From assembly GCF_030463535.1 (NCBI RefSeq), contig NC_132891.1, forward strand, positions 10,005,449 through 10,069,448: 64,000 nucleotides of DNA, given 5' to 3'. The notes under the pieces were generated by a model. The model made no database searches, was not told the DNA's origin, and saw only the letters and a program-made list of their open reading frames with translations. The number at the start of each line of letters is the position of its first letter. The first letter of the stretch is position 1. The stretch comes from Salminus brasiliensis (Eukaryota > Chordata > Actinopteri > Characiformes > Bryconidae). Both the position numbers and the translations under genes were made by a program. This document shows, one piece after another, positions 4,569-63,871 of the stretch.

Positions 4569-7500
4569 TCCAGAGAAAAGAAAGAAAAAGACAGAGTGGG
4601 TGTGTGAACATGCAGCCAGCTCTATTTGTCCATAAATGAGCACATCCCTGACTTCTCGTTTCCCCGCAGCATTCCGACTCCAAGGGATGTTCTCTTAAAA
4701 AAAAAGCGTCTTGCATGCCTTGTTACCATCAGGGCCCATTTTAGCTCTGTCAGAAAGTCCCACAGGGGAACTTATTTACGCCACCTGGGCCATGGTCCAG
4801 CCAGCGGCCCATATATTTGATTGCCGGTTCAGTGAACGCTGCACACTAATTCAAGCCCAGATAGGCAAGACAACAGTGGAAGTGCAGGGACATATGTCAA
4901 ACCGTGACGTGGTCTTTGTGCCTTGGAGTGTGAGGGCATGTCTCACAGACCCCATGTCATCTTGATTTGGCCATGTGCTGAGAAGGATTCTTTAGGAGCC
5001 AAGGAATAGAATCAGTGGAGGCCCCATGGCACAATACCAATACTACCAACAGCATCTTACAAAGTCAGGTCTTTACAAAAGGCCTCTGGTTCTAAGAAAT
5101 ACTGCATTTTTTTTTTGGGGGGGGGGGGGGGGGGGTGTATATTATGAATCATTGTCCTGCTGCAGAAGACTATCGTCCTTTTAGCTATAGCATTTCTGTA
5201 GCTGCTCTGTACACAGTGTGAATAATTCTGGACGAATAGACCAAAAGGATCACTCTAAATTACTTGGAATAAACTCTTATTTTCCTTGACTTCCATTTAA
5301 AGCTCAAAACATTTTTTTCCTTAAAAGTCACCTTTTGGGAGATACATGTTTTCTATTGGACAGCGACAATGTGTACACATGATTTGACATTTGCACCCAG
5401 GGTTTGTTGGTATTTTGTGAAATCCATTCTTCCCTCCAAGGTGTTCTTTTCATGAAGTGCAATTCCTTTTTCCCTTGAACCTTTACTGATCGTGTCTAAA
5501 CTAAATAGCAGCATACTCAGCTTACAGTAGTCTAGCTCTCCTTGAAGCTTACTTTGGAAGTGTTACAGAGCTTCAAGGAACACAGATCAGCCAATTGCAG
5601 CAGAGACCATTTACAGATGAGTCATAAAAGCACAGTAAAAATGGCATTTTTGAATATAATGGATTGTGATTGTTTTTTGATACATAAAACAAAATTGGGG
5701 GAAATAAAATACAAGAAAAATAAGGGATAGAGGCCTCAGGCTTTGCAAGCTGATTGTATTGTGAGACAAAAATAATGCTTTGTTCGAAATACAGAAGGCC
5801 AAAACGTGGGCAGCAGAAAGTGCTTAGGAGGCGATTAATTTGACCATGTGCAAGATAGCTCCAAGTGCCCACAGCTGTCCTGATTGCACTTTGGGAGGTC
5901 ATTGCTGGATTGGCACTGGATTGGCTCTCTTGCCCTTCCCCTCTCTCTCCTTTTCTCTGCCTCACACACACACAGAGATTTCATTCTTTCTTGCCAGTAT
6001 GGCCTCTGGACTAGATGGTGCATTCCTTCAGTTTATTCTTACAGGGCTTCCAATTCTCACCTCCCCCTTGTGCACATTTTTCTCCCGTTCTCTGCACCCC
6101 ACACACACTTTTACTCCTCACTCCCTGTAGTAACCAGTAGTCCTGCTGCTTCCTCGCACGCCATCTGTTTATGTTTATTTTTCAACTCTAAATTAAAGGA
6201 GCTTTCTCCGCCAGGAAATTTGCAGCATTGGCAAATCATCACGGCTTCGCTCCTTCTCTCTAAATATTTTGAAAGCATCGTCCACTCTTTTTTTCTTCTC
6301 TTCCCATAAATCTGACACTTTCCTCATCACTCGCTTTCAGGGGCTGCCGTTCCAGCTCGGATGACATATTCCTCCCTCATTTCCCCTCTCTTCCCAGTGT
6401 GACCTTCTCTTCAGGCCTGTGGGTTCTCCCCGTTTTACTGCCCTCATTGTAAATGTTTAATGACTGTGTGACTGCGTTGTTCCAAAGACGTAGAGAAGGG
6501 AAATGAGGAATTGGGATTTTGAGTGTGTGTGTATGTGTGTGTGTGTGTGTGTGTGTGTATGAACAGGGAGGACATCCCTGGAAAATAAAGAGGGAGGGGA
6601 AGGAGACACAAAGCCAGTGGAATTAAAGAGTGTAGGATGTTTCTTATTGTTCTTCATGTGGATGCATTTACTTTGGGCTTACTTTAATTGTGTGTGTGCT
6701 TCCCTTGTAGGGATCACTGTGATTAGGGAACACTGCTTTCCTCTCGATAAACAAATTAATAGTTTATAATACGTTTATAATAACGTCTTGCGCATTTCCT
6801 CTCTCCTACCAAAGGCAGTTCCCCAGTCCAGATGGTAACATTAATTAGCTACTAGGACTGAGAAGTAGGGCTGTACCATATGGACATATAATGTGGTGTA
6901 ACAGTGCATGGAAGACTCAGGATTAAACTGCTGGATCACAGTGCTAGAGCTTGACCATGAGAGAACTTTGGGTTGGAGCTTCAGACAGCTTCAGTTTCAG
7001 CTTCAGGCAAGCTGAAAGGTCAGAACCCTTTTGGAGAAGTGGATCTAAGACTGAGAGATAAAGATAAAGTTAAAAAGAGAAGACGGGGTGGTGGTGGGTT
7101 GTGGAAACTCAGTTGTGGGACATAGAAGGTAGAAATGGGAGTTTATAGGATGTTAGAGCTACAGGCATGTTCCTCCTCCCAATATTTCAGAACTCTACTT
7201 TGCGAGTGAGGACCATGCAATCATCATATGCTAGTTTGGCAGGAGACTCAAAGAGGTCGGAGGAACTCTGAGAGAACTTTTGGTTGGAGTTCAGGCAACG
7301 TCTACGTGTGCTAGGAGGCCAGGCGTGATTCTGAGAAGTGGAGCTTGGACTGAGGAGTTATGGGGAGGAGACGGGATAGTAGTGGGTTGTGGAAAATCCG
7401 TCATGGACACAGAAGACTTGGGAATTTATGAGACGTTAGATTAGGAGGAGGAACTTCAGGCAGGAAATTCAGTTATTTCAGAAATCCACTGTGCAAGTCA

Positions 7501-10500
7501 TCAGCATATAATAGTGTGAAGGGAGACTTTTTTTTTTTTTTTTTTTTAACACCTGTGAAAACTGTTCCAATTTATGACATTTTAAGTGCATATATGAACC
7601 AACACCCCTTTTTCTATAGATCCTGCTGTTAAGTGTGTGATTCCAGCCAGGGCTGTTTGGTTTACTGAATCTCTTCTTCTGGCTCTGGGATTTCTAAAAC
7701 GCTCTAGTCCTGCTGTGTGTTGTTTAAAAACTGTAGAAGTCCTCTCTCTATTTAGCTCGCCGTTAGGAGCCGTGAAGGACCAAGTACTAAAACCTCGACT
7801 TGAGTGAAAATAGAAATACCCCTGCTAAAACATAACTTGAGGAAATTTGCAGTGCAAAATTGTTCATTTGATTTGTTCACCACTGCTCAGCAGTACATTT
7901 CTCCAGCTGTCATTTCTCTGCCCACAGTTCAGAACTGCTGTGAGGGTGACGTCTTGTTCCTGCTGGATTCCTCTGGCAGCGTGCTGTCTTTTGACTTCTC
8001 CCACATGCTGAGCTTCCTGTCGGATCTCACATTGCCCTTTTCTCTGGGGCCTGACCAGGTGAGGATAGGGCTGCTGCAGGTCGGGACAGAGCCTCACCTG
8101 GAGTTCGGATTTGGGGCCCACAGCACCCAGCAAGGCCTTCAGGCCGCACTGCGGAGGACTAAACAGCTTGGAGGGGACACCAACACAGAGGATGCTCTAG
8201 TGATCGCCAGAGAGCGGGTTTTGAGACCAGGCACACCTGGAGGAGCTAGACCAGGACTGCCAAGAGTTCTGGTGTGGATTACCGATGGAATAGGGCCTGG
8301 GGATGTGCAGGGACCAATGGCTGAACTGCGGGAGGATGGCGTGGCCGTGCTGGTGGTGTCCACCGGCCGAGGGAATTACCAGATTCTGAGAGAAGTAGTG
8401 ACCCCACCTGTTGAGGAGCACCTGTACTTTGTAGACATTGAAGATATGAACATCATCACTGAGGACGTGAGGAATGCCATCATTGGTAAGTTTGTTTTAA
8501 ATGGGAAGATTCTGGGAATTGATCTCAGAATTTTATGTTGAGCTCATTCTAAATGCTACAACACTTTCTCGGTTATCAGGGAATCATATAGCGCTCTGTT
8601 TATAATTCTGAACACACTTAACATGTGTTTAAAATTTTACATATTTCCTATGTAAAATTTGTATCAGCCTATAACTAATGTGTTGAAACCTAGAAAGTTA
8701 AAAATATTAGGATGCTAGAACTAAGAATTATAGACCAGTATCTTTAACTAGTTTGTTTAAAATCTTAAAGCAGTACTTCCAAACTTTTGAAGGGTAGTGT
8801 ATCTCTGTGGAGGTCCTAATACTGAATATTTGGACATTTAAGATGTTAGACAGATTAATAACTGCCCTATAACTGTGTCCTTTATGGGCAGCCCAACTGG
8901 GAACTAGGGGTGGCATGATGCCACTTTTTTATGTCCGGTACTGATACTGCAACTTCCACGTCTGCAACTGGAGTTGTAGCTTGTCAAGACTAAAGAAACA
9001 TGATTAGATAGGATGAGTATTGCTTGTTTTCATATGTGCATCTGTAAGTTACACTTAAATACTGGCATTTAGGCTTGAACCATGCATTTATGTGATAGTT
9101 TAGGATCTGATCAGATAGTTTAAAACAGTTTAGATCAGATTGGCGCACTCCTACTGGGAACCAGAACATTTTGGCCATGGGTTTTATATAGGCCCCACAT
9201 ATGGATGCCCACCAGATGGGATCAGAAGGGGTTAAACAGGGGCCCCATCTGGGTTGAACACTGCACATGCAACCTTGATGGCACCCAATTTAGATTAGGT
9301 TGGGCTGTAACGTTGGGGCCTATTAGGGAAGCCTAACTGGTTTCCAATGTTCAGTTTGAATACTAGCTTATTTAATAAGCTGGGTTTGATTGTGTGCATC
9401 AAGACATATAGAAAAGATTATCCTTTTAAACATTTTTGAAATTCAACGGCAGAATTTATGTAGGTAGCTGTTGAATGCGCTGCCACTATGTCCTGGGGGT
9501 TGTGAGTTCAAATGGAGTGTCGGGAGCATTGTTAGTGCTAGGGGGAGCTACGTAAGGATGGGTTAATTTAGGTAGAATTTGTTTGCATGACAGTGTGGTA
9601 TAGAAATATGTGCAAATGTGTAGGTAGGTTTTTTCTTACTGTCACTGCAGATCTGGCAGTGCACTTTATGCATCTGGCCAACAGTGTTTTAAAGGCTCTT
9701 TGGTTTATCATTTTCCTTAATTGTATGTTTTTTTTTATTTTTGGAAGGTCATATGTGGTGTGTCTTGATTAACAATCTAAATATTTTGATAGATTACTTG
9801 ATTACTCACATAATTGATAGTGACAGGCCTGCTCCATAGCAATTGCCTAAACACTGCTGGCAGTGGGAAGGTAAACTTCGTACGAGGTATTATGCTGTCT
9901 AATACCACAAAATTGCACTTAGCCTTGAGCAAACATATTTAAAGAAGAGAGCAGAGAGACTGTATGGGTGTGGACGTTTCTGTGCCTCCACCCTTGTGTG
10001 CTGGAGAAATGTAGGCCTCTATGCCAGACGGCTCTGACACAAATAGCTTGAGACGGCAGTATTGGACTGGAAGGTGACAGTGGGAAAGGGGACAGAGTAA
10101 GAGACACTGTAATGGGAGAGGGGGCTAATAATACAGAAAGTATTACGCTCCCCCCCCGCCCAGTGGAGCCCTCACAGGGCAGTAGACATGGATATTATTA
10201 GAAAGCATTTCTCCTTGTTTACTGGATTTCACGTAAGTGTGTACTTATAGACACTTGCATATGCACACACATGTAAGACGATATACATAGACCACAGCTC
10301 AGAAATATCGAGTCTGTGGTATGTCGTCCATCCAGAGCTCGCCAAAGACTATACCAGGCACACTTATGAGACCACTATTTGTCATAGGAGCATCCTCTGA
10401 CTGACTTTTCTATTTTTAGGAACATTATCTTCTGTGCTTTCAATTATTGTGCAATAGAGTTTGCCTGACTGTTTTATTAATTTACTCTCTCTCATTGCTT

Positions 10501-11263
10501 TTTCTCTTTTTCCCTTCTTTCTCCCTGTCTGATTACTCAGAGATCATTCGTGCCGAGAGGTTGCAGGTCCGAGATGTCACCTCTACTAGCGCAGAGTTGC
10601 ACTGGAGGCCTGTGCTTGCTGGTACTGGTTACTATGACATCCGCTTTGGCCCTGTGCGCACAGGAGCTGAAGGGGCAGGGGGAAGCCCAGGTACCAACCC
10701 TTCAACGCAGCCTGGCCACTATCAGAGAATCATCCGTCCTGCAGACTCCAGCTCAGTCAAACTGGCCAACCTGCGACCAGACACCACCTACATCGTCACC
10801 CTCTCCCCGGAGTCCAACCTGGAATTTTTCAACAAGCTGAACACCACCTTCACCACGCAGGCAGGTGAGAGTCACTGGACAGTCTTGGTGTTCACTGGGT
10901 AAGCGAGTCCTATGTGAAATGTACTGTAATCCAATCCATGAAGCATTTATAGGGGTTTAACTATATGGGTTGGACTAATATATCAGTGGGTAGACAGTAT
11001 AGGCAGATTTTGCAGAGAAATCAGCAAACCATATCAAGTATCGCAGATGCATGGGTTTATTAGCTACTGTTTTGGTTGAAGCACCACTTGGGTTCAAACT
11101 AGTAATCTCCTCATGTTCAGGCAACGGTTGTACCACCAGGAGAACACACTATAAACGTAGTTATATGACATCAATATGAACTGAACTGGTAAATGTGACC
11201 ACAAAACCACAACATTCAATTCAATTGTTATAATGCACACAAAAAAACTATTTACGAAGAAAA

Positions 11264-16827: not shown

Positions 16828-19510
16828 CTAGAAATCAAAAAGAAGGGAGGTCGCTCAACACATGTCTTGTAATAATAATGCATGTAACCATAGAAAATGT
16901 CAATCACTCCAACCTTGGGTTTATGTGAAGTACTGCTCTCTGGTGGCGATATATTGTCACTGCATTCTACATGATTGCTTTCACATGGGATGTGCGTGGC
17001 CGTTCCAAATTCACAGTGTGGCGATTGGTTCCTCAGTTCAGACTCCAGCCATTCGGCATGGCACTGCTGTGAGGTGGCACTTGATTGGCACAGATTCTCA
17101 TCTTGACCTGAAAGGAACAACAAGGGACAGTGTTTGAGAGAGGGGGAGGGGGGGAGATGCTGGCCAGGGCAAGAAGAAGCAGAGACTGACAGATTAACTG
17201 ACTGACTTACTGCTGAAGTTGCTGGTCAATAAGGAATTGAGGATAACTTCCTCATCCTCGCAGGGAGAGTGGCAGGGGGAAGGCGCCCTCTGCTTTTCTC
17301 TCGAACCGTCACCAAACCGTCTTGAATTGTTCAGATTCTTGCAAAGGGGAAAGGATATACAGATGTGAGAACGTTGGTAAACCCTTTAGAAAGACCTAGA
17401 TTTCAAGAAAATGTGATAATCATAATAAAAGGTTTTACACACACTACTGTACAGCAGCACTTCTTCAGTGTAGTATTTGAATAAAACACATGCTTTAAAC
17501 AGTCAACAGCAATTGTTGGAAAAAATAATACTTTAAACTTTATAGTTTAGAAGGACCATCTTTACTGGCAATTAACTAAGGATGTTGTATAGCTACAGAT
17601 TCCTTTATTACTAATGTAAACTAAAAAACATGAATGACCTGCTTTTGACAATTCTGCTGTAGTGATTCCTGAACAATTGCAAACCACCCACGCTCTGCAG
17701 CAGTAAGAGTCCAATTTCCCTCAAACATAATGTGTACATTTATAGTTATACACTCTTAAGGGGTATTTGAGGGGGGAAAAAAAGTATAATCAGTATAATC
17801 GGTAGGTATAATCTGCCTCTGGTAGATATGTAATGGACAATGAGAAGAGTACATTTCCCTTTTGTATAAGCAGCAAAAAACGTCATTAAAATAATAATTA
17901 AACATTAAATAACATTGAATGTTCTACATGATTTAATAAATCATTTCTTACACCTTTATTTTTAAAAGTACATATTCTTCAGGTCTTTGCATTTGTCAGC
18001 AGACCATTATTCCATACTGTGGAACATCCAGGTTGTCTTTAGCCTTTATTTTAAGAGGTAACCTCCCACCCCCCTTGTTCAATGTTTATATTTTGATAGG
18101 CTTGTGATCCCAGACCAGCCTCTTGTCAATGGGCTACATTTTACAGGTTCACTTACTTTCTTCCATCAAAAGCTGTGACTGTTTAAACAGTTTCTTCAGT
18201 AAAGACACGTTTGTTGTTAAATGTGACCAATACAAAATGCTTCTAAAAAAGGTTCACAAAACTTGTTTTGGTTAAATGATATATTAAAGATATTTACAAA
18301 CCTCAATACGCAGATGAGCAGGACTTTCAGAGTTGTCTCCAGTGTGCCGGACACTGTCGTAATGGTCACCATAACGATATGCTATATGAAGCTCTCGGCA
18401 TAAGGCTTTATCTGACCCATTGATCTAGATTCAGAAAAACTGAAATTTGCCTCATCTACAACATTTACAAGCAATGCATTTCATCAAAAATCACTTAATT
18501 AAATAATGATGCTGAAAAGTACAACTGCAAATCCTCACCTCCCACAACGGAGCATTCAGCTGATGGATTACGACTTTCAACTGCTGGCTGCGGGCAAATG
18601 CTACTATTGCATCATTTCCAGCAAACGTGCCCTGCTGTGCAAGGTTCGACACTAGAGGATGAGAAAAGGATAACTGCTGTTTAAATATACATTCAAGATT
18701 TTTAAAATGATTACTTTGTGTTGCTCAATATGCCACAGCTGACTAGATGAATATGTAGCGGAGCCATTTGTGTTACATTTCCCGCAGATTAGATACATCT
18801 AGGGGCTAGCTATATTGAGGACAGGCCAGTCCAGTTGATCTTTAATTGGAGAAGGTAAATCATCCCCACTTTATGCTATTATATAGAAATGAAGGTTAAA
18901 GGATATAGGGAACAAAGAAAATGAAGTAATAACTAAGACAAATATATATTTGTAGTAATACAGTCTCTCAGGAGATGGGACAGCAGGACTGAATCCCTGG
19001 CTTTAATGCAGAGGGCCTTCAACCTGGTCCCATCAGTTTGTCTGTGTACCAGCAACAATTCTTTCTTACAGTGCTGAGTGAATGGCACATCATCCTCAAC
19101 AAAAGGTTCAAAGTCCTGCCGATGAGACAACATATACTGGACCGTCTCCTGACGCAGGTTCAAGTGCCCTCGCGAGTGTCCCTCCAGCTGATCCGCAAGA
19201 GCTCTAAACAAACAGTTTCTACAGGAGAGACAACAAAATGGGAAAGTTTGTTTACTTGGTCAAAATTCCTAACCAGCAAATGTGGCAATCACTCTCAAAC
19301 ATACCCATCTCCTGGAACCTCTCTCAGCTTCAGACCAAGAGCTTTCAGTTGGTTGGAGAAGCTGACAAACTCCTCTTCTTCACCCTCTCCTGGGGGTCGA
19401 TTCTTACGGTCTTTGGCCAGAGCCCTGCGGGCAGCTCGCTCATCCCTCTTTCTTTCCAAGTCACATTTCCTATTCCCACGCACAGGCTTGCCTGACTGTT
19501 TCCTTGACAT
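16663..19510 (-). CDS. otud3: OTU domain-containing deubiquitinase 3 (7 exons, 358 aa)
   Basis: Exons on the minus strand: 19510-19305, 19218-19070, 18651-18539, 18424-18302, 17337-17211, 17107-16914, 16827-16663. All have GT-AG ends and phases agree. The OTU catalytic core is intact: Asp68 and Cys71 in PGDGNCLFRAL, and His177 in [11 protein letters not shown]. The start MSRKQSGK sits in a strong caccATG context. The C-terminus is a charged [19 protein letters not shown] helix as in human OTUD3. In mammals OTUD3 removes ubiquitin from PTEN and other targets; it acts on several linkages including K6 and K11. The product is 40 residues shorter than human (398 aa by memory), and the missing part matches the UBA-like region: exon 4 (OTU end) joins directly to a Ser-rich linker. 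Confidence 0.93.
16914..17107 (-). CDS. otud3: otud3 exon 6 (linker)
   Basis: Encodes [20 protein letters not shown] through SSTSHKPK. A tttcag acceptor and a gttgga donor give phases that fit both neighbours. The linker is diverged from the human protein. Confidence 0.72.
17211..17337 (-). CDS. otud3: otud3 exon 5 (linker)
   Basis: Encodes [20 protein letters not shown] and the acidic [17 protein letters not shown]. Conservation is low; the call rests on an open frame, matching phase and good splice sites. Confidence 0.72.
18302..18424 (-). CDS. otud3: otud3 exon 4 (catalytic His)
   Basis: Encodes [19 protein letters not shown] then [20 protein letters not shown]. It completes the OTU domain and ends on a codon boundary. 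Confidence 0.92.
18539..18651 (-). CDS. otud3: otud3 exon 3
   Basis: Encodes [20 protein letters not shown] and [17 protein letters not shown], the most conserved central part of the OTU fold. Bounded by a ctctag acceptor and a gtgagg donor. Confidence 0.93.
19070..19218 (-). CDS. otud3: otud3 exon 2 (catalytic Cys)
   Basis: Encodes [19 protein letters not shown] through [11 protein letters not shown]. The catalytic Cys is the second full codon. The donor is gtaaga. Confidence 0.93.
19305..19510 (-). CDS. otud3: otud3 exon 1
   Basis: Encodes MSRKQSGK, the basic stretch [20 protein letters not shown], and the OTU start [20 protein letters not shown], ending inside DG at a gtatgt donor. Confidence 0.93.
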
Positions 19511-23955: not shown

Positions 23956-24406
23956 GTGGTTGGTGTGGCGCAACAGATAACACCACTACCTGCCACTGAG
24001 CTACCTCACCATGTTGGAGACATTTATGGCATTTAGCTGACGCTCTTATCCAGAGCGACTTACATGGTTACTCATATTACAGAGGTGGGCCAATGGAGTG
24101 TTAGGAGTCTTGCCCAAGGACTCTTATTGGTGTAGCGCAGCATAGTCACCCAGACTGGGAATCGAACCCCAGTCTCCCACATGGTGTGGTAGCTCAGTGG
24201 CAAGTAGTGGTGTTATCTGTTGCGCCACACCAACCACTAGAGACTAGGGTTCGATTCCCGGTCTGGGTGACTATGCTGCGCTACACCAATAAGAGTCCTT
24301 GGTCAAGACTCCTAACACTACATTGGCCCACCTCTGTAATATGAGTAACCTTGTAAGTCGCTCTGGATAAGAGCGTCAGCTAAATGCCATAAATGTAAAT
24401 GTAAAT
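23956..24406 (+). mobile_element. tRNA-derived SINE split by a second SINE
   Basis: The sense copy has its head (ggttggtgtggcgcaacaga) at 23956-24021 and resumes at 24240 with ctagggttcgattcccgg (B box) to its tail ggataagagcgtcagctaaa and (gtaaat)n at about 24406. The missing middle is explained by the antisense insertion at 24022-24238. Confidence 0.8.
24022..24238 (-). mobile_element. SINE inserted in antisense into the 23956-24406 copy
   Basis: An almost complete copy of the same family in reverse: tail at 24022 (atttatggcatttagctgac), head ending cgccacaccaaccac at about 24237. The host word gagac occurs at both edges (24017-24021 and 24240-24244), a likely target-site duplication; extending to 8 bp, ttggagac and ctagagac agree at 6 of 8. 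Confidence 0.78.
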
Positions 24407-26060: not shown

Positions 26061-38914
<12,854 letters not shown>

Positions 38915-45380: not shown

Positions 45381-45606
45381 ATTTACATTTACATTTAAGG
45401 CATTTAGCGGACGCTCTTATCCAGAGCGACTTACAAGGTGACTCGTATTACAGAGGTGGGCCAATGTAGTGTTAGGAGTCTTGCCCAGGGACTCTTATTG
45501 GTGTAGCACAGGATAGTCATCCAGACTGGGAATCGAACCCTGGTCTCCCACATGGTGTAATAGCTCATTAGCTGCCAGTGGTTTTATCTGTTGTGCCACA
45601 CCAACC
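45381..45606 (-). mobile_element. tRNA-derived SINE, near full length
   Basis: Antisense copy of the family at 24.0 kb: tail atttacatttacatttaagg at 45381, cggacgctcttatccagagc, body attacagaggtgggccaatg, B-box region ggaatcgaaccctggtctcc and head ttgtgccacaccaac at the right. Confidence 0.82.
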
Positions 45607-48818: not shown

Positions 48819-49044
48819 GGGTATGTCTGGAGAGGGTCTTACCAGTGTCTCAGTACTGATGTGGTTCTCATGATGGACAGCAGGTGGCGCTACTCGTCTG
48901 GACTTTAGACTGGAAGCACGTAGAGGAAGAAGAGCAGAATTCAGCAGCGGTTTCACACTCTCAGCTCGGAGTGTGGGAGTGTGTGTGTGTGTGTGTGTGT
49001 GTGAGTGTGTGAGTCTGTCCAGTCTGGAGCGCAGTGGAGGCACC

Positions 49045-49059
49045 ATGGATCAGGGTTAA
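49045..49059 (+). promoter_or_regulatory. atp13a2: Short upstream open reading frame of atp13a2
   Basis: A four-codon frame (Met-Asp-Gln-Gly, stop TAA) starts in a strong caccATGG context and ends 15 bp before the presumed atp13a2 start, which has a weaker context (G at -3). Confidence 0.5.
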
Positions 49060-49074
49060 TCACTGCTGGTAGGA

Positions 49075-49087
49075 ATGGACCCCCCTG
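49075..49087 (+). CDS. atp13a2: atp13a2 exon 1 coding part
   Basis: Only four codons (Met-Asp-Pro-Pro) and one base before a gtaagt donor. The start is chosen because it joins in phase to exon 2; no other upstream ATG does so. Confidence 0.6.
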
Positions 49088-52000
49088 GTAAGTTCACTTT
49101 CTCCGGTAGGCTCGTGTCTGGACCGCGCCTCGCGCTCGGCTCTGTTGGCTCCATTCATACATACAGTAATAGTTCACTGGTGGACTGAGGGTCATCAGAC
49201 CAGCGATAGTCGTGCAGTCGTTGTTATGTTATGGTGCTGTGAATCATGGAGGATGACTCCAACACTGAACCCAGTGGAGGAGCAGAGCAGATCTTCAGAG
49301 AGCTGTAGGTGTAGAAATGTGAGAGGCAGTCGCGTGAGATCAGGGTTCAGCTGTAGCTCGTCTTTTCAGGGCAGTCTTCTGCTGGGATGTCGGCACATGA
49401 CTTCGAGGAGCTTGACTTCCCTGGGCTTGACTTTCCTGAGCCTGACTTTCCTGGGCTTGACTCTCCTGAGCAAGTCTTTTAGGAGCTTGACTTTCCTGGG
49501 CTTGACTTTCCTGAGCCTGACTTTCCTGGGCTTGACTTTCCTGGGCTTGACTTTCCTGGGCTTGACTTTCCTGAGCCTGACTTTCCTGAGCCTGACTTTC
49601 CTGAGCCTGACTTTCCTGAGCAAGTCTTTTAGGAGCTTGACTTTCCTGAGCTTGACTTTCCTGAGCTTGACTTTCCTGGGCTTGACTTTCCTGAGCCTGA
49701 CTTTCCTGGGCTTGACTTTCCTGAGCCTGACTTTCCTGAGCCTGACTTTCCTGAGCCTGACTTTCCTGAGCAAGTCTTTTAGGAGCCTGACTTTCCTGAG
49801 CCTGACTTTCCTGAGCCTGACTTTCCTGAGCCTGACTTTCCTGAGCAAGTCTTTTAGGAGCTTGACTTTGCTGGGCTTGACTTTGCTGGGCTTGACTTTG
49901 CTGGGCTTGACTTTGCTGGGCTTGACTTTCCTGGGCTTGACTTTCCTGAGCAAGTCTTTTAGGAGCCAGACTTTCCTGGGCTTGACTTTCCTGAGCCAGA
50001 CTTTCCTGAGCTAGACTTTCCTGAGCTAGACTTTCCTGAGCAAGTCTTTTAGGAGCCAGACTTTCCTGAGCTAGACTTTCCTGAGCTAGACTTTCCTGAG
50101 CTAGACTTTCCTGAGCAAGTCTTTTAGGAGCCAGACTTTCCTGAGCCAGACTTTCCTGAGCCAGACTTTCCTGAGCCAGACTTTCCTGAGCCAGACTTTC
50201 CTGAGCTAGACTTTCCTGAGCAAGTCTTTTAGGAGCCAGACTTTCCTGAGCCAGACTTTCCTGAGCCAGACTAGCTTGACTTTACTGAACAAGGCTTTAG
50301 GAAGCTTGACTTTAAGATGCATGACTTCAGGCTTTTGGGAACCTGGCTTGTATAAGTAAGAATTTAGGAAGCTTGACTTTCTAAAGCATGACATTAGATT
50401 TTGGGAACCTGGCTTTAATAAGTAAGACTGCTATATGCTTGACTTTCCTGAGCTTGACCTTAAGGTCTTTAGACGCTGATTTGGCAATAAATGGTCTGTT
50501 TCTTTTCCTTGGCTTTTCCAAGACCACCCTGGCTATTAGAGTCTGTTTCACCTCATGCCTGTACACATTAGTCCTGCCTCTAGCCTTTAAAAACACTGAG
50601 TATGTGGAGAAAGGCGGAGTTGGAGCCTGCTAGTCCCGCCTTCGCAGATAAAGTAAATTCCGGCAGGTGTGCTGTGTCCCTCACACGGATCTCTGGTCTC
50701 ATAAAGCCACAGCAAATACACTGAGTATTGAATATCTGGATGTAATTCACTGTCAGTAATAATGTCATCTGACTTTACTGAAGAAGTTTACTGAAGGCGG
50801 CAAGACAGTTCTAGGGAAGGACAGAAAGGGACCGGTAAGAAAATTAATGCACATTTTATACCTTAATGAATCTTGTGCCTCCTGATCAGCACAGTAACAG
50901 TGCAGGGTAGCGTGTTGTTGATTCGATCTTTTGCCCACAAGTCACATCCTGTTAGGGCTGATTGTACACTGTGCTGGATTGTTGGTCCTTACTCTCTGAC
51001 TTGGGTTTACAGCATTGGAATAAACCTGTTGATTAAAACAGGCTATAAAGGTATATGACGCTTTGTGATGTGCTGGTTTTGCTCAGTTCTTAGCTTTACT
51101 TTGCCCCCAGCTGTCTAAAAACTCCTCTGAGAGGAAGAGAAACCGTATCGGTTGGTGAGTGTTTAAATAAGTAGGCCTAAACTTTCACTTTGTCTTGTGA
51201 TCCCCCCACCTCTCAAGCTGTTCTACACAACGAAAGACTCAGCTGTTTCTGTGCTGGTATGGGAAACGACACCAAACAGGCATGTGATGTGAAAAAGAGG
51301 AAATTAATGTACTGTGCAGATTCCACTCCACCCTTGTTTGTAAAAATAGTGCAAAAAAACAGAAGAATGAATGGCAAAAGAATATAGTTTTCTTTATTAT
51401 TCCTATAAATAACTCATGTCTCATATGGTTGATACAGTAACTATGTAGAGTGGTAGGTTTACTGTTGATTTGATACAGAAGTCCTGTTAGGATTCACTGT
51501 AAATTGTGACTCTGTGTGTCCAGAGTCCTTCATCCAAAGTCACAGCTTTTTCATTTCAGATTTCTTTATAGATACTTAATCAAAGCAGTGGAGAGATGCC
51601 CTGATCCGATTCAGTGGACAACAGTGAGCCAACCACCGTATTTATTAATATATACCGTACATATTTTAAGCCTGATCCAGTTCATATCCTTTGTTTTTAC
51701 TGCTGTGTTCTAGCCAAGTGCCCTCTGATATCTTCTACACATTAGCCCCTTAGACCCTGTAGTTAAGCCCACACTTCACCACTCTCACAACTACATTACT
51801 ATCATAATTAGCATCAATTTTATAGACCCTAACATAGAACCCTTTGAGACTCCACAAGATCTGCTAAACCAAACACCTACCAAGTCATTCACGGTAGTTT
51901 CTGCATTAGGATTAATATCTAAATGATTAACATATAGTGTTTCTGGAGGGGTTAGCAAATGTTATCACAGCCAGCAGAAGTGAGGAGCATTTTCTTAACG

Positions 52001-55000
52001 TAACAGAACAGCTCAGATTGTGCAGTGTGGAACTGCTTTACGGGGGAACGTGACTCCTTTAGCGACAGGCTGCTTCACCCCAAGTGTGTGAAGGAGCGGT
52101 ATCGCAGGTCCTTCCTTCCTGCTGCCGTCAGACTACACAACCAGCACTGCTCCCAGCGGACCACATACACACACACTTAACCACATACACACACACTTAA
52201 CTACACACACATGTTCATGTTCAGGGAATACTATGTGCAATATCCCACCCCCATGTGCAATTAAGAGTCTTTTACTGTAAATAATATTGTTTATTGCTTT
52301 TTTAATTCTTATCTATATTGTGTGTATATAGTGTAAATTATTTATTTATCTAAATTTTTGTAACTGAGTGTCCTGCTATCCCTTTCTGCTGTTACACTGT
52401 GAATTTCCCCACTGCGGGACTAATAAAGGACTATCTTATCTTATCTTATCTTATCTTAACATTATCTGTAGTTTTAGTTTTATTGATTTCACATTTATTG
52501 CATATTTTGCTTTTCCTTTAGATGTTTGTCGATTTTCTGTCCTTTTTTCCCATGGTGCCAAAAAATATGTGGGAGAATACGTTCGCACAATGTCCTAAAG
52601 AGAATTATGACTGGTTAGAAAGGACAAATTGATGTAAACGCTCAGTTTTAACAGCGGGAGTGACTCGAACCTTTGTTGAGTTTAAACCATTACTGAAAAG
52701 CAAATAGTTCATTAAAATAGTTCATTCACATCAGTAGTAGTGAGTCAGTTAAGAGTTTGTACATGCTTCACACACACATTAGACCAAGTGATTTCAATGC
52801 AGTGTTTTAAAGGAACTGGGAGCTGAAGGGTCAGGGAGGTCAGTCAGACTGTATTACAGGATATTAAACACACTATAAAACAGTCATTTAAATAATAGTT
52901 ACCAAACCAAATAAGCAAGTCCAAAATGTCTCAATATGAAAGCTGTTACTAAATAAAATGATATTTCAGTATTTTATTAGCGGCACAGCCTAAATTGTGT
53001 GTGTGGAAACACAAAAATCAGATACTCAGCATTAAGGTATTGGTTCACGTTGGTTCTTTCTCTTTATGTGGTCATAAGTGTGGTGTTCTGGTAGCAGTGG
53101 GAAGTCATATGATCTAGTCCTGTGAATGACCAGCTGCAGTCCTGCACTGCAGATCCTGATTGCTCTGCTTATGTTTACTGAAGGAGTGTGTTTGTCGTGT
53201 TCCAGCACTAAACTGATCTTGCTGTTTTGACTACTGGTATTGAACTGGCTTAAAGGTTACAGATTTCCCTCTTTCCCTACAGGGAGCGACACTCAGGGGA
53301 TGGGTGGGCTGACCCCCGCAGACCCCGAGTCTGCCTTAATGGATTCTGGGCCTGCAGACACCCCCTCTGTCTCCCACATGGTACGAAACATATGAAAGTT
53401 TCTTATGACTTTCAGCATTCACATACTGTACTGATTTTTTCTTTCCTGATGTTTTCGCTTAATAAAGTTGAATTGAAACCGAAAATGTAATCATTAACAT
53501 ATTGATGTGAGACACAATTACACTTTCACTTATTTTTGCTAGGAACCCAATGATACCCAATTGTAGTTCACATGTATTTACCAATTATTTATTTGTTACT
53601 TCTTCCTGACAGATATTTAATTTTGTATAAATTGGTGTAAATGAATAATTATGTGAACCTAGGAGAGAGTATTAAAATAAAGGGTTAATTGAAGCCTTTC
53701 AATCATGAGGATTGCAACCAGGTGTGAGTAGCAGGCCCTCCCATGTTTTCAGAACATAAACTTAAGTCTTCAATATCAAAGTCTGATCTTCGCCACACAG
53801 GTTTATGGAACCTGTGTGCCATGCCTCAAACAAAAGCTGTTCTTTGAGAGCTTCAGGAAGTGTTATCTGATCTATCTGGTTCTGAAAAACATTCCATAAA
53901 GTTTGGCCTCCACTATCCACTATGAGACAGATGATATACAAATGGGGGATATTCAACACCACTGTTACTCATGTAAAGAATGGTTGTCCAGCAAAAAGCA
54001 CTGCAAGGCAACAGCTAGTAGTAAAACAGGAATTCACCTAAGAAGTTCAGGTAACATCTAAGGACCTACAGGCCTCATTTGCACAGAGGAATGTCGATGT
54101 TCATGAGTCCACAATCAGGCAAACACAGAACAACAGTGTGTGTGGGAAGAAACCACTATTTTAGAAAAAGGAAAACCCATCTGGAGACTTGCAAAACCAT
54201 GTAAGTGAACTGAAGCTTTGCTGTGAGCGGGTTATGCAGCAAGACAATGACACAGCACACAAGTAATTCAGCAATTTGATTATAAAACTCAAAATTTAAA
54301 TTCAATTGAAATGTTGTGGAAGAACCTTAAAAGCGCCCTCCAACATCACCAAGCTGAAGCAGTTTTGTAAGGAGGGATGGGCCAAAACTCTTCTAACCCT
54401 TCTGACCACCAGTTACTATAAACGTTAGTTGGTTGAAGTTATGGCTGCTCAGTCACACCAATTACTAAAAGCAAGGGTTTGCATATTTTTTCAGACAAAC
54501 TGCAACTTAATGATGAGAACTTTAGAATATGCATAACCATTATTACTAAGCACTGCCAGTTTTTGAGAAACTCTACCAATTATTTTAACTATTGAGTGAA
54601 GAGCTTTTTTAAATGTTCAACAATTACAAATAAAACTATAAATAAATCATAAAAGGTTTAATTAAAAAATGCAATTAATGAATTGTGATTAATCCCTAAT
54701 CTGTAAGGGCCTGGGAGGTCAAGCTCTTGTATTGTTACAATTTTGAGTTGTAGCATTAGGTCTCGCACCCTCTTTTTATCCACTGTACCTTTTACCCCCT
54801 CAGGTATACAGGAAGCGGTGTGCATTGGTGTAAAATGGTGTTTTATGATTTTTCTGCCAGGATGTCCAGGGGTACAGAAGAGTATGCTGGAGGGTGTGGC
54901 TTTGCCACCTTGGAGCAGTTTGTTCTTTAGGCATGCTGCTGGTATTATTTAACTGGCGCCCTCGACTAGCAGTTCTGGCTCGATGCACCTCTTGCCCCCT

Positions 55001-58000
55001 TCCCATGGCAGATACTTTACTATTAAGGGTACGCTTTGCTCTTGCCTCTCAAAGATTGACTGTTGCAGCATTTTTGATTCCTAAGTCAGTCATCAAATGA
55101 TTCATTATGACTTGGTTTTCTTATGTTATAGGATGTTTATGGGCAGCAGTATGTCATAGATGTATGTACGGAGGAGATTGAGGAGGGAAGGTAAGAGCCT
55201 TGGATGTTTTGTTTGAATAGTACTGTAGAAATACTTATATTTAGATCTGTTATTTGTATTATATACAATTGTGTGTAAAAGTCTCCTGAAAAAAGTGATG
55301 TTTAAGGTTGTTAATCTGGACAGTAAATGTTATTAATAAAAAGAACAGTTCACACTTAACACCTGGTTTATCTAATCAGTACTTTATTAATGTAATAAAG
55401 AAATATAATTTCATTGTCTCTGGAGTGAGGAGCCAAACCTGTATTCTCCCTACATTTATGCATAGTTAGCCATATTCACCCACAGTTATATTAACAGTAG
55501 TGTCTGCATAGATTTGTCCCATGAGAGTCCACGGGTTCTGGGTTTGATAGAGCGCACTGTGAAACTTTCTGACCTCATTTCAAGCTTTTTAAATGAATGG
55601 TAAAATGCAAATCCAAAGCAGTTTAGTGGCTGTGGAACAGATTATCAGTTTATTCTTATCCTTTCTAGTATTACATAACTTTTCACCATTACTTTGGAAT
55701 TAACAGCTTCATGTCTTTCTCTGTTTCTCAAGGTTCAGCCTAGTGTTTGATTTATTGACAGTAATAATTTAACAGGTTCTGAGGCTGTATATATTTAGCT
55801 GCAAATGTGGATTGTCTTTTGAGAGATTTTGAATTCTTATTAGGCTAATAAGAATCATTTTATAATTTTAATAATAATTTTCTTTTTTGATCAATGCAAC
55901 CAAGATATAGCTTGTTGACTGAACATCCAAATGAATAAAACACCAACCAAACACTCATTGAGAACCATGCTGCACAGTTGAATTGTGTCAGCAAGGAAAT
56001 GGAAATCTTGCTTGGAAGAGAATATAAGAAACTACTGCAGGAATGCTTTATTTTTCGTCTACTGGAAAGCTGAAGCCAAAACAGTGGTTCAATAATACAA
56101 TGTCCTTGATTGACTCAGCCAAAGCCCTGACCTTGGCCTGAGTGGGGATCTGTACAGCACAGTTTGGAAAAGCAGTTGAAATACACTGCCAGACATCAGC
56201 CAGAAGAAGTGGGCCCTCAACAAGGCCCTTCATCCTCTTTGCTTCAGGACTATGTTGCCCAGAAGCCTTTTAGCACAAAGATAATTGTTAAATGGTAGAG
56301 CGAGAATCACATTAAACTCTCTCTCTACCAGTTTAGATGATCTCAATACTAAAAAGCTTTTGGGAAACTGAGGCCAGATCAGTATGAACACGAGTTTCCA
56401 TTTGAAAATGATCAAATACATTTTTTTTTTTACTAATTTCTACTCTAAGTTAGACACTGAACAGACACTTGTGCCTGTCAGTAAGTCATGCAAACAATGC
56501 TGCTGAACGACTTTCCTGCCCCTCCCTATCAGTTGCATGCTTGGAGCCCTGGGGCTGCAGCTCCAACAAGCCCAGTTAATGCAGCCCTATGCAGACTGGT
56601 TGATGTGGTTTGGAGTACACATTAAGACAGTGAGCTAGAAAAATAAACCATGAATGAAAAAATAACTAAAACGAACTTTTTATTATTTTTTTAAATAGTT
56701 CAGAATACGTCATAATGTGTCCTAAACCACATCAACATTAAGACGTTTGTTGTGACCATAAAGAAGAGCTGGATGTAGGTTAAGCAGTTTGAGAAAAGAA
56801 TGAGGGCCTGCATTTACAGAAAACCTTTGAGCAGTGCCATAGAAGAACCACTTGTGGTTCCATAAAGAGCCATTTTTGAGAGTGTGAAAAACTTTTAAAC
56901 TGGCAAAACCTTCTTTAAACATATAAAAGGTTCTGCTCTACTATACAGAATGGTTCCTAATGGAACCGGGGGTTCTTCTAAAGGAAATGATTATTCTATG
57001 GCATTGATCAAAGAACATTTTGTAGATCCTTCCTTTTTAAGAGTGAATGAGCTGCTGCACTAATCACAAGCAGCCAGATTTTGACACATCACTTCTTTGC
57101 TGAACATCTACATTTAAAATAATGCTTCTCTGAAAAATGCAACGTGTCCAAATGTGGAAAAATAGGTTGGGAAATGGTCATGATATTTAGTACACAAACC
57201 CAAAATAACATCTCAAGTGGTCCTCAGGGGAAGAAGACCAAGAGGATATGGACTCTAGAGAAAACCCACTACTCAACATATCATGGCAAAACATGTTCGC
57301 ATTTGGGACTTGGCAAACTTATTGCTTCTAATTAGATGTATCCCATCTTTTCCAGGAACAGTGTATGATTTTATTTATTTTGTAAACATTGGCAGTGAAG
57401 TGCGAATCTGGAAACATGGCAAGAATGTAACTCCTATCTTAACTTCTGCAGTTTTGAGCATGCAGGAGGAGAGGTGGATGAGAACGAATGGAGAGACAAT
57501 GTTCAGCTACACAAAGAACAGGTAAAATGTATATAACATGGAAAACACACCCAGCATTGTTTCTAATAACGCACTTTTTGTTCATTCTTAACTGTTTATA
57601 TTCCCTAGAAAACCGTACTGCGATACTATGTGTTTGAAGGCATGCGATATGTGTGGATGCCCAGAAAAGGGGCTTTCTGCAGAGTTAGGTATGATTGGAA
57701 AGAAGCTATATGATTCTTTTTCTTTTTCTGGCCTTGCATGATTGAAAATGTAACACTTTGTGTTTTTTCAGTATCCTCAATGAGGGTTGGACTTGTGCTG
57801 ACTTGCATCGTCTTCAGCAGGGCCTGAGTCCAGCGGACCAAAGCTCAAGGTCTAACGCACAGCACTGCTCATTAGGGCTGCACGATATTGCTATTTGTTC
57901 TGCAATATATAAGGCAGGGATTCTCACCAAATTTTACCAGAGGTCTCCAGAAGTCAGTGGTTCAGCATATCATGATATGAATATTAATGCACTCTGTGTA

Positions 58001-61000: not shown

Positions 61001-63871
61001 TCAGCTGCAGGTTTCATTACTAACAGTGTAATTAGACTGGTTTAATTAGATGAAGTGCAGCAGATGTTGAATATAAGTTACTGTAGTCAGTACAGGAGAG
61101 TAGTTTTTAAGGATCTGTCGCTACTGATGTTTTTAGTCTGTGATTACGTGTATCGTGATAAATATTATGTATAGCAAAAAAAAATCAGGATCTAGTATTT
61201 TTACCAAATGGGCTGCCATAGCATGGCTTAACCTGTGCTCTGACCCAGGCTTATGCAAAGGGAAGGATTCCATTGTTCCAAGTAGTAGTATTTGTTTTTT
61301 TGATTTTATATATATTTTTTGATTGTGTACTTGACTGAGGAACATAATTCTCTGGTTTATTACAACTATTTCATTTAAAAGCCATATCTGATTTAGCTAG
61401 AGCATGACGTTACTTCTCTTATTTTGTTTATACATAACATTTGAATAGTAGTACATACCAAATAATTCATGAATTGAGCATTTTAGGTTGTACTTTAATG
61501 TATAAATAGTGAGGATATGACTTTGATTATTTGTGTAATGTTGAAAAGAAAATGTAATTTGTCAAGCCTGTTTACAATCCAGTTATTTTGCCTCAGAATG
61601 ATTCACATATTATATAATATAACATGAATCAAATATTAGAGTTTTAACACTGTAACAAAAACACAAATTATTCCAAGTCTTACTGGAAAGCGTCACTATC
61701 CTCTAGTTGTGTCCTCTCAGTGTGATGTGAGCTTATAGCTTTTCCCTGACTTACTTCCCCGGGTTTGGCTTTCTTGACTGTTAATGGTTTGGTTTAATAC
61801 ATGTCAAGTTTGAGCTCTCCTCCGGGTACTGGCATTTGAAAAGCCATGATTAGGAGGCCTATTAGCAACCAGTATTCCTGTATAACTGGTCTGGAGGTGG
61901 TGAGCTGCTCTCCAGTATTAATTAGTGGTATGTAAATGTTGTGTTGAGCCAGCATTTGAATTTTCTCATTGCGTGTATGATTCTATCTAGAGGAAGAGTG
62001 CGTGAGTTCAGTGGAGTTGGTGCCGGGAGACTGCATAGTGATCCCAACTGAGGGTCTGCTGCTGCCATGTGACGCTGCCCTGCTGGCCGGGGAATGCATG
62101 GTCAATGAAAGCATGCTGACTGGTGAGAAAATACAAGTACTCTTATTGTACGCAGGTTGTTACTGTTATTGTTTCCGCTGGGTTTAATTTTTTTTCAGTA
62201 AAAATCATATTTGGCAGCACAGGGCAATAAAGAAGCATCACACATAAGACAAGTGGCCTGTGTAAGTTTAGCAAAATGAACTCTTTGTAGTGAACGCACT
62301 TTCTCTTTCCACTTCACCACTCACTGTCAGGTGAGAGTGTACCTGTGATGAAGACCCCATTGTCCGTCTCTGAGGAAGCATACAGCCCTGAACCTCAGCG
62401 CAGACACACACTGTTCTGTGGTACACAGATCATCCAGGCCAGGGGGGGTTGTCCTGGAGGGAAGGGGGCAGTAGCTGTTGTCACCCGCACAGGTAATTCA
62501 TAAAGTAAATACTGATGTCTCCAGGAAACATGCAACTGAAAGTGAGCCTGTTTCTCAGATATCCATGCTGATGAGTAGGTTCTACTTGCAAACGCATGGT
62601 GATTTACAACCATTTCTCTTTCTCAGGGTTTTTCACTGCTAAAGGTGACCTGGTCAGCTCCATCCTTTACCCACAACCACTTAATTTCCGTTTCTATCAG
62701 GATGCCATAAAGTTCCTGCTATTCTTAGGAGGCCTGGGTAAAATGATATATTCACTGTTTTATATATTATATATATTCACACCCCATGAAAACATTGAAC
62801 AATATTGGGAGTTTAAGGTAATATAACTAAACCAATAAAACTGAAGAAATATCTTTTTAAATAAAAATTGTGAAATTAGATTAGTGAGTGTTATTACTAT
62901 GTTGAGATCCAAAAACAATAAACTCTGAGGCCTCCAGAAAGAAGGTTGTAGATGCATATGCTCTCAGAACCGTCAGCTGTTCCACTGTCCACTAAATCAT
63001 TTACAAGCAAAATAACTGCCAGCATGGCCAGGTCAGGCTGTCCTAGCACGGTCAGCCCAAGAGCAGACTGCAAGATGTGTAAAGACGTCTCACAGGATGT
63101 CAAAGTACTTGCGTCCACCATTAGAAAGAGACTTCTACAGAGAGCTCATATATGATTTTAAATTTAGCCATTTTAAACAGTAATTAATGTGGGGGTGTCA
63201 ACTTTTCTCCACACAATAGAATTGCATTTCATTTAATTATATTTTACAAATATTATAAAGCCATTTCTTTGGCTGGGTTGTATATGCTTAGTTATATTAC
63301 CTCCATCTCTCAATATTGTTGAAATGAAGATCAAATGTCCATAGGTTTTTATGAAGAGGGGTGGTTTTGTGATGACATATGGTCTTAAGAGACTAACCAC
63401 ATGAATGTCCTTGTATTGCAGCTTTGATTGGCACAATATACAGCGCAGTAATGCTTTATAGGAGCAATGTAAGTAAGACTACCACTAATCGATAAATACT
63501 ACTGTTTGATATAAATGGTGAAATCCAGATGCTGAACTGTAGCCGTGACCATTATTCTCTTTTCACTGCTTAGTTCTTGTTAATATGTCGATGCTGTATC
63601 TGATATTACAAATAATTTGTTCCCAGTACAACCAATGATAACCAGCTTTTTTTTTCTTTTTTTTTTTTTTTTTAACCATCAGACCACTTGGGCAGAGCTT
63701 GTTATCCGATCCCTGGATATCGTGACCATTGTGGTGCCACCTGCTCTCCCTGCTGCCATAACCACAGGCACTATCTATGCTCAGCACCGCCTCAAAAAAC
63801 AAGGAGTGTTCTGCATAAGCCCCCCTCGGATCAACATCTGCGGAAAGATCTCTCTCTTCTGCTTTGACAAG
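49075..63871 (+). CDS. atp13a2: P5B-type ATPase ATP13A2, 5' part (15 exons, 493 codons; continues past the edge)
   Basis: Exons: 49075-49087, 53283-53380, 54861-55028, 55132-55190, 57452-57521, 57609-57688, 57772-57849, 58424-58493, 59749-59883, 60606-60672, 61991-62122, 62331-62492, 62627-62737, 63422-63468, 63683-63871. Phases agree at every join. The product has a membrane-inserted Ma segment (about 50-68), M1-M2 (about 216-253), the actuator-domain TGES motif (323-326), M3 and M4 with the P5B signature PPALP (449-453), and ends CFDK with the phosphorylated Asp at 492. Human ATP13A2 (PARK9) exports polyamines from lysosomes; loss causes Kufor-Rakeb parkinsonism. [10 protein letters not shown] and [12 protein letters not shown] favour ATP13A2 over ATP13A3. 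The 3' half, with the ATP-binding and C-terminal membrane parts, lies outside the window. Confidence 0.93.
49405..50275 (+). repeat. 15-bp minisatellite with higher-order spacing, about 58 units
   Basis: Unit gagcttgactttcct and variants repeat without any change of phase. A variant unit (gagcaagtcttttag) recurs at 49471, 49621, 49771, 49846, 49951, 50041, 50116 and 50221, always a multiple of 15 bp apart (10, 10, 5, 7, 6, 5, 7 units). Because 15 is a multiple of 3, long open frames appear on both strands (289 and 195 aa); these are by-products. It lies in atp13a2 intron 1. Confidence 0.95.
50276..50480 (+). repeat. Decayed edge of the 15-bp minisatellite
   Basis: Words gcttgactttactga, gaagcttgactttaaga and gcttgactttcctgagc continue the array out of strict phase. 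A longer word, ttttgggaacctggctt, occurs near 50333 and 50399. Confidence 0.75.
52030..52460 (+). mobile_element. 3' end of a non-LTR retrotransposon (LINE)
   Basis: From about 52060 one frame reads [20 protein letters not shown] and [13 protein letters not shown], typical of the C-terminal end of a LINE reverse-transcriptase protein. A 3' UTR follows and ends gcgggactaataaaggacta with a (tctta)n pentamer tail, as 5'-truncated LINE copies do. Clade not determined. Confidence 0.8.
53283..53380 (+). CDS. atp13a2: atp13a2 exon 2
   Basis: Encodes [20 protein letters not shown] then [12 protein letters not shown], a variable cytosolic N-terminus. Bounded by ctacag and gtacga. Confidence 0.72.
53990..54520 (+). 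mobile_element. Degenerate Tc1-like transposon
   Basis: A broken frame includes QQDNDTAHK and later [12 protein letters not shown], resembling the Tc1 catalytic motif and C-terminus. Stops and frameshifts are frequent. Terminal repeats were not resolved. Confidence 0.6.
54861..55028 (+). CDS. atp13a2: atp13a2 exon 3 (Ma segment)
   Basis: Encodes [40 protein letters not shown] and [15 protein letters not shown]. The pattern of a hydrophobic hairpin followed by W.P and a Cys-rich turn is shared with human ATP13A2. Confidence 0.9.
55132..55190 (+). CDS. atp13a2: atp13a2 exon 4
   Basis: Encodes [19 protein letters not shown]. Bounded by tatag and gtaaga. Confidence 0.85.
56820..57045 (+). mobile_element. 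MITE of the 'ggttct / agaacc' family
   Basis: Contains gaagaaccacttgtggttcc, aaaaggttctgctctacta, aatggttcctaatggaacc and a tttttaagagtgaatg end. Confidence 0.6.
57452..57521 (+). CDS. atp13a2: atp13a2 exon 5
   Basis: Encodes [20 protein letters not shown] and KEQ, aligning with the human region ending AQLHKSEE. It ends on a codon boundary. Confidence 0.87.
57609..57688 (+). CDS. atp13a2: atp13a2 exon 6
   Basis: Encodes [20 protein letters not shown] and GAFCRV; compare the human pattern RYYLFQGQRYIW. Confidence 0.92.
57772..57849 (+). CDS. atp13a2: atp13a2 exon 7
   Basis: Encodes [20 protein letters not shown] then ADQSS. The donor gtctaa is weak, but the phase fits exon 8 exactly. Confidence 0.87.
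58061..58335 (+). mobile_element. Truncated Tc1/mariner-like MITE
   Basis: Left end tacactatatggacaaaagt and attggcacacc, with gagcaccatcaatacagaga and ttctctacagagactacaca matching the 27.67 kb copy. The right terminus is missing. It lies about 90 bp before atp13a2 exon 8. Confidence 0.75.
58424..58493 (+). CDS. atp13a2: atp13a2 exon 8
   Basis: Encodes [20 protein letters not shown] and FEE, the entry into M1. A truncated MITE ends about 90 bp upstream. Confidence 0.93.
58598..58820 (+). repeat. 'gggctgggcgatat' repeat
   Basis: Starts gggctgggcgatatagtaaa and carries cacaatatt and tatcacattatgatgaatta, a word pattern shared with 60890-61190. Confidence 0.6.
58868..59662 (-). mobile_element. 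Tc1-like transposon with decayed transposase
   Basis: Inverted ends: cagttgcagtcacatctatt-caaccc on the left and the reverse of cagttacagtcaaaagttat-tcaacc on the right. On the minus strand the broken frame gives [15 protein letters not shown] and [20 protein letters not shown] split over frames, the Tc1 DDE signature region. Several stops make it inactive. It ends about 90 bp before atp13a2 exon 9. Confidence 0.85.
59749..59883 (+). CDS. atp13a2: atp13a2 exon 9 (M1-M2)
   Basis: Encodes [20 protein letters not shown], then [20 protein letters not shown] and YEIKK. Highly conserved in P5B pumps. Confidence 0.95.
60606..60672 (+). CDS. atp13a2: atp13a2 exon 10
   Basis: Encodes [20 protein letters not shown] and SG, the start of the actuator domain. 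Confidence 0.92.
60885..61190 (+). repeat. 'gctgggcaatatgacgatat' repeat
   Basis: Begins gagctgggcaatatgacgat and ends near gtatcgtgataaatattatg; inside is taataaacactgatcagctg. Same family as 58598-58820 by terminal words. Confidence 0.6.
61991..62122 (+). CDS. atp13a2: atp13a2 exon 11 (actuator domain)
   Basis: Encodes [39 protein letters not shown] and the first base of the TGES glycine. Confidence 0.95.
62331..62492 (+). CDS. atp13a2: atp13a2 exon 12 (actuator domain)
   Basis: Completes TGES with [20 protein letters not shown], then [17 protein letters not shown] and VAVVTRT. Confidence 0.95.
62627..62737 (+). CDS. atp13a2: atp13a2 exon 13 (start of M3)
   Basis: Encodes [20 protein letters not shown], then [17 protein letters not shown]. 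Confidence 0.95.
63422..63468 (+). CDS. atp13a2: atp13a2 exon 14 (end of M3)
   Basis: A small 47-nt exon encoding [15 protein letters not shown], bounded by ttgcag and gtaagt. Confidence 0.9.
63645..63674. repeat. Poly-T tract before atp13a2 exon 15
   Basis: Nearly 28 T with one C, ending 8 bp before the exon 15 acceptor, so it serves as an extended polypyrimidine tract. Confidence 0.9.
63683..63871 (+). CDS. atp13a2: atp13a2 exon 15 (M4 and catalytic Asp)
   Basis: Encodes [40 protein letters not shown], and [21 protein letters not shown]. The intron falls between the DK and TGT of the P-type signature. Confidence 0.95.

Follow-up and report, generated by a model that had tools for sequence, protein, structure and literature searches.

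The array of 15-bp units described here is very probably an ordinary minisatellite, born locally at one place within intron 1 of atp13a2 in a fish, grown mostly by single units and nearly neutral. Its units keep a single phase, form zones of like types and are interrupted, at intervals more even than random, by a distinct variant unit, V. No other array in the window, the whole 64-kb stretch of DNA that was analysed, reaches 300 bp.

Units, zones and position in the host gene

TRF described the array as 57.3 copies over 859 bp, with 85% matches, 0% indels and a score of 969, and a unit-by-unit listing gave 57 whole units in a single phase (49408-50262) followed by one broken unit, in agreement with the sequence-only reading, which had counted about 58 units of 15 bp kept in phase. 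These are the characters of a minisatellite, in which units of about 6-100 bp lie head to tail across hundreds of bases (here 15 bp x 57.3, 859 bp), and in which internal variant units occur together with local homogenisation. Ten distinct sequences were found among the 57 whole units: GAGCCT (13 units), GGGCTT (10), GAGCCA (10), V (GAGCAAGTCTTTTAG, 8), GAGCTA (6), GAGCTT (4), GGGCTT..GCT (3) and three singletons. When V is set aside, neighbouring units are alike in 23 cases vs 7.8 expected, a number that 0 of 5000 shuffles reached, and the zones of unit types are therefore real.

V departs from the consensus in 6 of its 15 bases, and all 8 occurrences are unchanged (starts in Table 1). Successive V units are separated by 10, 10, 5, 7, 6, 5 and 7 units, which confirms the earlier observation that V returns every 5-10 units at multiples of 15 bp. 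This spacing is more even than random: in 20,000 random placements the probability of a smallest gap of at least 5 was 0.002, and that of a gap variance this low was 0.014. V never neighbours V (0 of 8, whereas units of other types have like neighbours in 22 of 48 cases; Fisher P = 0.017, a rough value because adjacent units of an array are not independent). Written as letters and cut at V, with e, g and k for the singletons, the order of units is eGCg / VEGCGGGCCC / VEEEGCGCCC / VCCCC / VkKKKGG in the first half and VPGPAA / VPAAA / VPPPPPA / VPP in the rest. The claim that ctaga and ccaga types prevail to the right of about 49960 also stood, since the first such unit starts at 49963; the right zone includes a single GGGCTT unit (49978) among GAGCCA and GAGCTA units, and a separate ..TTTGCT zone precedes it (Table 1).

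The left edge of the array is sharp: when the left flank (49088-49407) was aligned in two pieces, between 88 and 661 of 1000 shuffles scored as high. The right edge is not, and the related sequence, which had been thought to end at 50275, extends as decayed copies to about 50470, partly with a 66-bp period. Two pieces, 50287-50312 and 50363-50381, align locally to V and the unit after it with scores that 0 of 1000 shuffles reached; the piece at 50287 is V-like across most of V, and the piece at 50363 matches just the tail of V and the unit that follows. Plain units fit far better than V at 50437-50461 (scores of 46 and 30). The V-like piece gives a faint hint that V might be an old component of a proto-repeat.

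The host gene was recognised by its matches. The best matches of the exon at 63680-63829 are to ATPase 13A2, which accounts for 13 of the 16 distinct sequences among the matches listed (best E 3.4e-16), the remaining 3 being named P5B-ATPase or cation-transporting ATPase. The predicted exon 3 has a weak match to ATPase 13A2 chains (13 of the 14 matches listed; for example 7n70, residues 38-90, E 0.04). The Pfam search, which covered 10 stretches of the window, gave only an E1-E2 ATPase match below the cut-off at 63680 (E 0.00075) and no match at E up to 0.01 for the stretches at 53254, 59698 and 62575 of the atp13a2 region or for that at 59180, so the identity of the gene rests on the ATPase 13A2 matches (63680-63829 and 54861-55028). 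Exons 1, 2 and 3, as predicted from splice sites (scored with an approximate matrix) and reading frame, join in one frame. On this prediction the array very likely lies in intron 1 of atp13a2, 320 bp past the donor of exon 1, as the sequence-only reading had placed it (about 0.3 kb after the first coding exon).

A short upstream open reading frame of four codons (MDQG, stop; 49045-49059) begins 30 bp before the predicted start codon of atp13a2. Within intron 1, a fair donor-like site (ACCG/GTAAGA, score 8.8 with the approximate matrix) at 50834 could close an alternative first exon. Elsewhere in the window, Pfam and Rfam identified domains and elements of other kinds (Table 1); Rfam gave 3 matches in the window and 0 in the array, and two of the UnaL2 matches (24340-24393 and 24023-24076) are separated by about 260 bp and have opposite orientations.

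Table 1. Coordinates of features in the window (position 1 is its first letter)
Feature	Position	Strand	Details
VWA and fn3 domains, probably of a VWA1-like gene	7804-8538, 10420-10899	+	VWA E 7.1e-30, fn3 E 7.3e-07; Pfam
OTU-type cysteine protease stretch, presumably otud3	18936-19259	-	E 6.8e-08; Pfam
UnaL2 (RF00436, LINE 3' end element)	24023-24076	-	Rfam
UnaL2 (RF00436, LINE 3' end element)	24340-24393	+	Rfam
TMEM240 stretch	30038-30526	+	E 4.4e-43; Pfam
UnaL2 (RF00436, LINE 3' end element)	45394-45447	-	Rfam
Predicted atp13a2 first coding part	49075..49087	+	ATG at 49075, ATGGACCCCCCTG then GTAAGT; donor 10.6
Possible cryptic exon start	49370..49482	+	acceptor 49370, in frame with exon 1; stop in first V; prediction
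Main array	49408..50266	+	15-bp period; TRF
V units	49468..50232	+	starts 49468, 49618, 49768, 49843, 49948, 50038, 50113, 50218; unit listing
..TTTGCT zone	49858..49917	+	4 units; unit listing
Right zone, GAGCCA/GAGCTA units	49963..50277	+	contains 3 V; last unit broken; unit listing
Decayed copies, partly 66-bp period	50278..50470	+	V-like piece at 50287; TRF and local alignments, 1000 shuffles
Predicted atp13a2 exon 2	53283..53380	+	acceptor 12.3 (strong), donor 5.5 (weak); in-frame joint
Predicted atp13a2 exon 3	54861..55028	+	acceptor 8.1, donor 5.5; weak ATPase 13A2 match

Growth of the array and its place in the genome

With V held fixed, the signal of like units is strongest at lag 1 (z 6.8), which points to the copying of single units as the main signal, and z is 1.0 at lag 10. 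When whole units were shuffled and identity was scored, lags 1, 5, 7 and 10 gave z values of 2.4, 2.8, 2.1 and 1.9. The spacing of V is non-random, but the length of the blocks varies from 5 to 10 units, which speaks against a strict higher-order repeat. The even spacing together with the absence of V-V neighbours favours the copying of V within longer blocks. This absence exceeds what single-unit slippage alone predicts and is counted against the preferred explanation. The data fit growth mainly by single-unit duplication and more rarely by the duplication of blocks carrying V. The proposal that the array grew by blocks of 5-10 units is thus upheld in part: the spacing of V and the lack of V-V neighbours agree with it, whereas the predominance of lag 1, the low value at lag 10 and the longest repeated string of units, which is only 5 (a length that 81 of 1000 shuffles also reach), do not.

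The direction and mechanism of duplication that we infer from these patterns would be as follows. An irregular repeat, the decayed units and 66-bp period of which are still visible at the right, was probably the source of the 15-bp unit, which may then have been multiplied by repeated duplication of single units, through slippage or unequal exchange. Less often, blocks of about 5-10 units, each with one V, would have been duplicated, and point changes preceding some of the duplications would have given rise to the zones. The array would be removed with intron 1 by splicing, and most likely has no function.

The repeat was found at one place only. A two-unit pattern, searched with up to 3 mismatches in the whole 1.07-Gb genome (103 contigs), had 41 matches, all 41 in the array or its right flank and all on one strand; the opposite strand and a reversed control each gave 0. 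Such counts are possible lower bounds, as very common words are skipped, and any copy diverged by more than 3 mismatches would escape. A DNA search of the genome with the whole array returned 2 matches, both local (the array itself and its own right part), and when the array, the 320 bp preceding it and its right flank were compared with the window, all 104 hits (E up to 0.05) fell within 49000-50600. The array therefore looks like a minisatellite that is private to this locus and was generated there, and an origin as a transposon-borne repeat or a dispersed satellite is unsupported, the matches with up to 3 mismatches being confined to the locus.

Arrays of this class are common in the genome, and the atp13a2 array is long yet within range. 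The control sample consisted of 20 stretches of 10 kb at round coordinates (contigs 1-16, at 1-12 Mb; 190,158 called bases; the window itself lies at 10.0 Mb of its own contig), in which arrays were defined as merged TRF rows with a period of at least 7 and at least 2.5 copies. With a minimum length of 300 bp it contained 14 arrays, spread over 11 of the 20 stretches; with 450 bp there were 11 arrays in 9 stretches, with 500 bp 9 in 7, and with 800 bp a single one. The rarity implied by the sequence-only reading is not supported by these counts, although only one of the 11 arrays of 450 bp or more exceeds the atp13a2 array in length. Among five control arrays, four had lag-1 z values of 4.2 to 7.3 and one (L006) 0.5, such values being inflated by phase slips, which were seen in the units of L018, with indels reported by TRF in L010, L014 and L020. 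Stretch L018 carries a long minisatellite of 47.7 copies of an 11-bp unit (3604-4127), and stretch L006 carries two long minisatellites (5309-6039 and 6497-7778) about 460 bp apart.

Regulatory, exonic and other readings

By analogy with human intronic VNTRs, the length of the array might regulate atp13a2, whether through intronic enhancer or silencer activity or through a change in splicing; this is the most plausible of the alternatives, though an improbable one. The array lies 320 bp past the predicted first coding exon, and there are precedents in the VNTR in intron 18 of ABCA7, the length of which correlates with exon 19 skipping and lower expression (PMC5954066), and in the first-intron VNTR with which DPYSL4 expression is associated (PMC8096271). 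Closeness to the predicted first exon and the lack of CpG, both counted against the neutral reading, leave some room for a regulatory effect: CpG occurs 0 times in the 859 bases, and among overlapping segments of that length 6 of 1263 are without CpG, 4 of which overlap the array. Branch-point-like CTRAY words are also enriched, at 15.1 per kb in the array vs 4.0 per kb in the window. However, this excess amounts to 13 words, which we take to be the 13 GAGCCT units, and would thus be one word multiplied. Acceptor scores within the array are modest and do not exceed 5.8 (approximate matrix), a level that the window as a whole surpasses roughly 5 times per kb. V is attractive by eye as a splice acceptor (TCTTTTAG/GAG), but with the approximate matrix none of the 8 V units turns up among the acceptor sites that score more than 4.

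A second reading, that the array is or was exonic, is very unlikely. Exon 1 would be joined to the acceptor at 49370 and would continue through E(L/P)DFP repeats to the stop in the first V, yielding a poison transcript or a short peptide. Splicing by way of this acceptor is the one route through which the array could gain importance. The joint keeps the frame, and the acceptor (score 9.7, exceeded 0.67 times per kb in the window) is above that of the predicted exon 3 (8.1); donor-like sites that could close such an exon follow downstream with scores of 6.0 (50355 and 50421), 8.2 (50666) and 8.8 (50834). Against this, the stop comes after 41 residues and recurs in each V unit, and the acceptor of exon 2 at 53283 is stronger (12.3) and leads in frame to the ATPase 13A2-like exon 3. 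Moreover, an in-frame joint is expected about once in three by chance, and the scores come from an approximate matrix. A combination of the two readings is rated lower still: the array could be a length-variable splicing switch, in which the 49370 acceptor and the branch-point-like units would divert some transcripts into a poison exon with one stop per V. If this were true, the length of the array would set the amount of ATP13A2.

Tandem repeats such as these are easily misassembled, and the length or order of the array might be an assembly artefact. This is judged a slight chance, as the assembly is of chromosome scale (103 contigs, 1.07 Gb; the contig of the array has 37.3 Mb), a single phase is kept throughout and the unit types lie in ordered zones.

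The array shows no sign of being a protein-coding repeat: stops are present in all three plus frames (8, 6 and 68), and the minus frames contain 0, 6 and 8, the one open frame being unremarkable because 2964 of 3000 column-permuted arrays also have at least one. A gene on the minus strand using the open peptide-repeat frame at 49343-50281 is hardly credible for the same reason, despite its 313 stop-free codons, since a stop lies immediately upstream of the array and the sole Pfam match (E up to 0.01) has 19.5 bits vs a cut-off of 27 over 12 residues; as open frames are usual for such arrays and no family match is above the cut-off, this open reading frame was ruled out. The 313-codon plus-strand frame at 49073-50011 was likewise dismissed, as 6 stops interrupt it within the array and exon 1 is read in a different frame.

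Non-B or stable RNA structure was rejected, as the 300 of 859 bases tested were less stable than the shuffle means, both as RNA (z +1.76; 190 of 200 shuffles at least as stable) and as the DNA minus strand (z +1.12; 176 of 200). A scan for terminator-type elements found 1 vs 2.1 expected; its model is bacterial and carries no weight in fish DNA.

Relation to known repeats

Among titles of the literature on ATP13A2 and minisatellites, no such array was found. One of the closest parallels is in Sparus aurata, where repeats in introns 1 and 3 of GH and in intron 1 of MSTN-2 form polymorphic loci (PMC3045353). As in our case, these include first-intron repeats of a fish gene, and minisatellite-type duplication is discussed there as a source of alleles. 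The S. aurata MSTN-2 repeat, however, has a block of about 150 bp that is present once or twice, in contrast to 15 bp x 57, and polymorphism was demonstrated for the S. aurata loci (PMC3045353), whereas the atp13a2 array comes from one assembly. The ABCA7 VNTR is similar in being an intronic minisatellite of a brain-relevant gene, but it is human, has a 25-bp unit and has a length associated with splicing and expression (PMC5954066). The genome of Nothobranchius furzeri resembles that studied here in its abundant arrays of 6-99-bp units (PMC2688266); unlike the most abundant minisatellites of N. furzeri, the atp13a2 array was found at one place.

For this fish, the array might serve chiefly as a length marker. 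It is also one example of what may be the mixed growth of minisatellites, by single units and by blocks.
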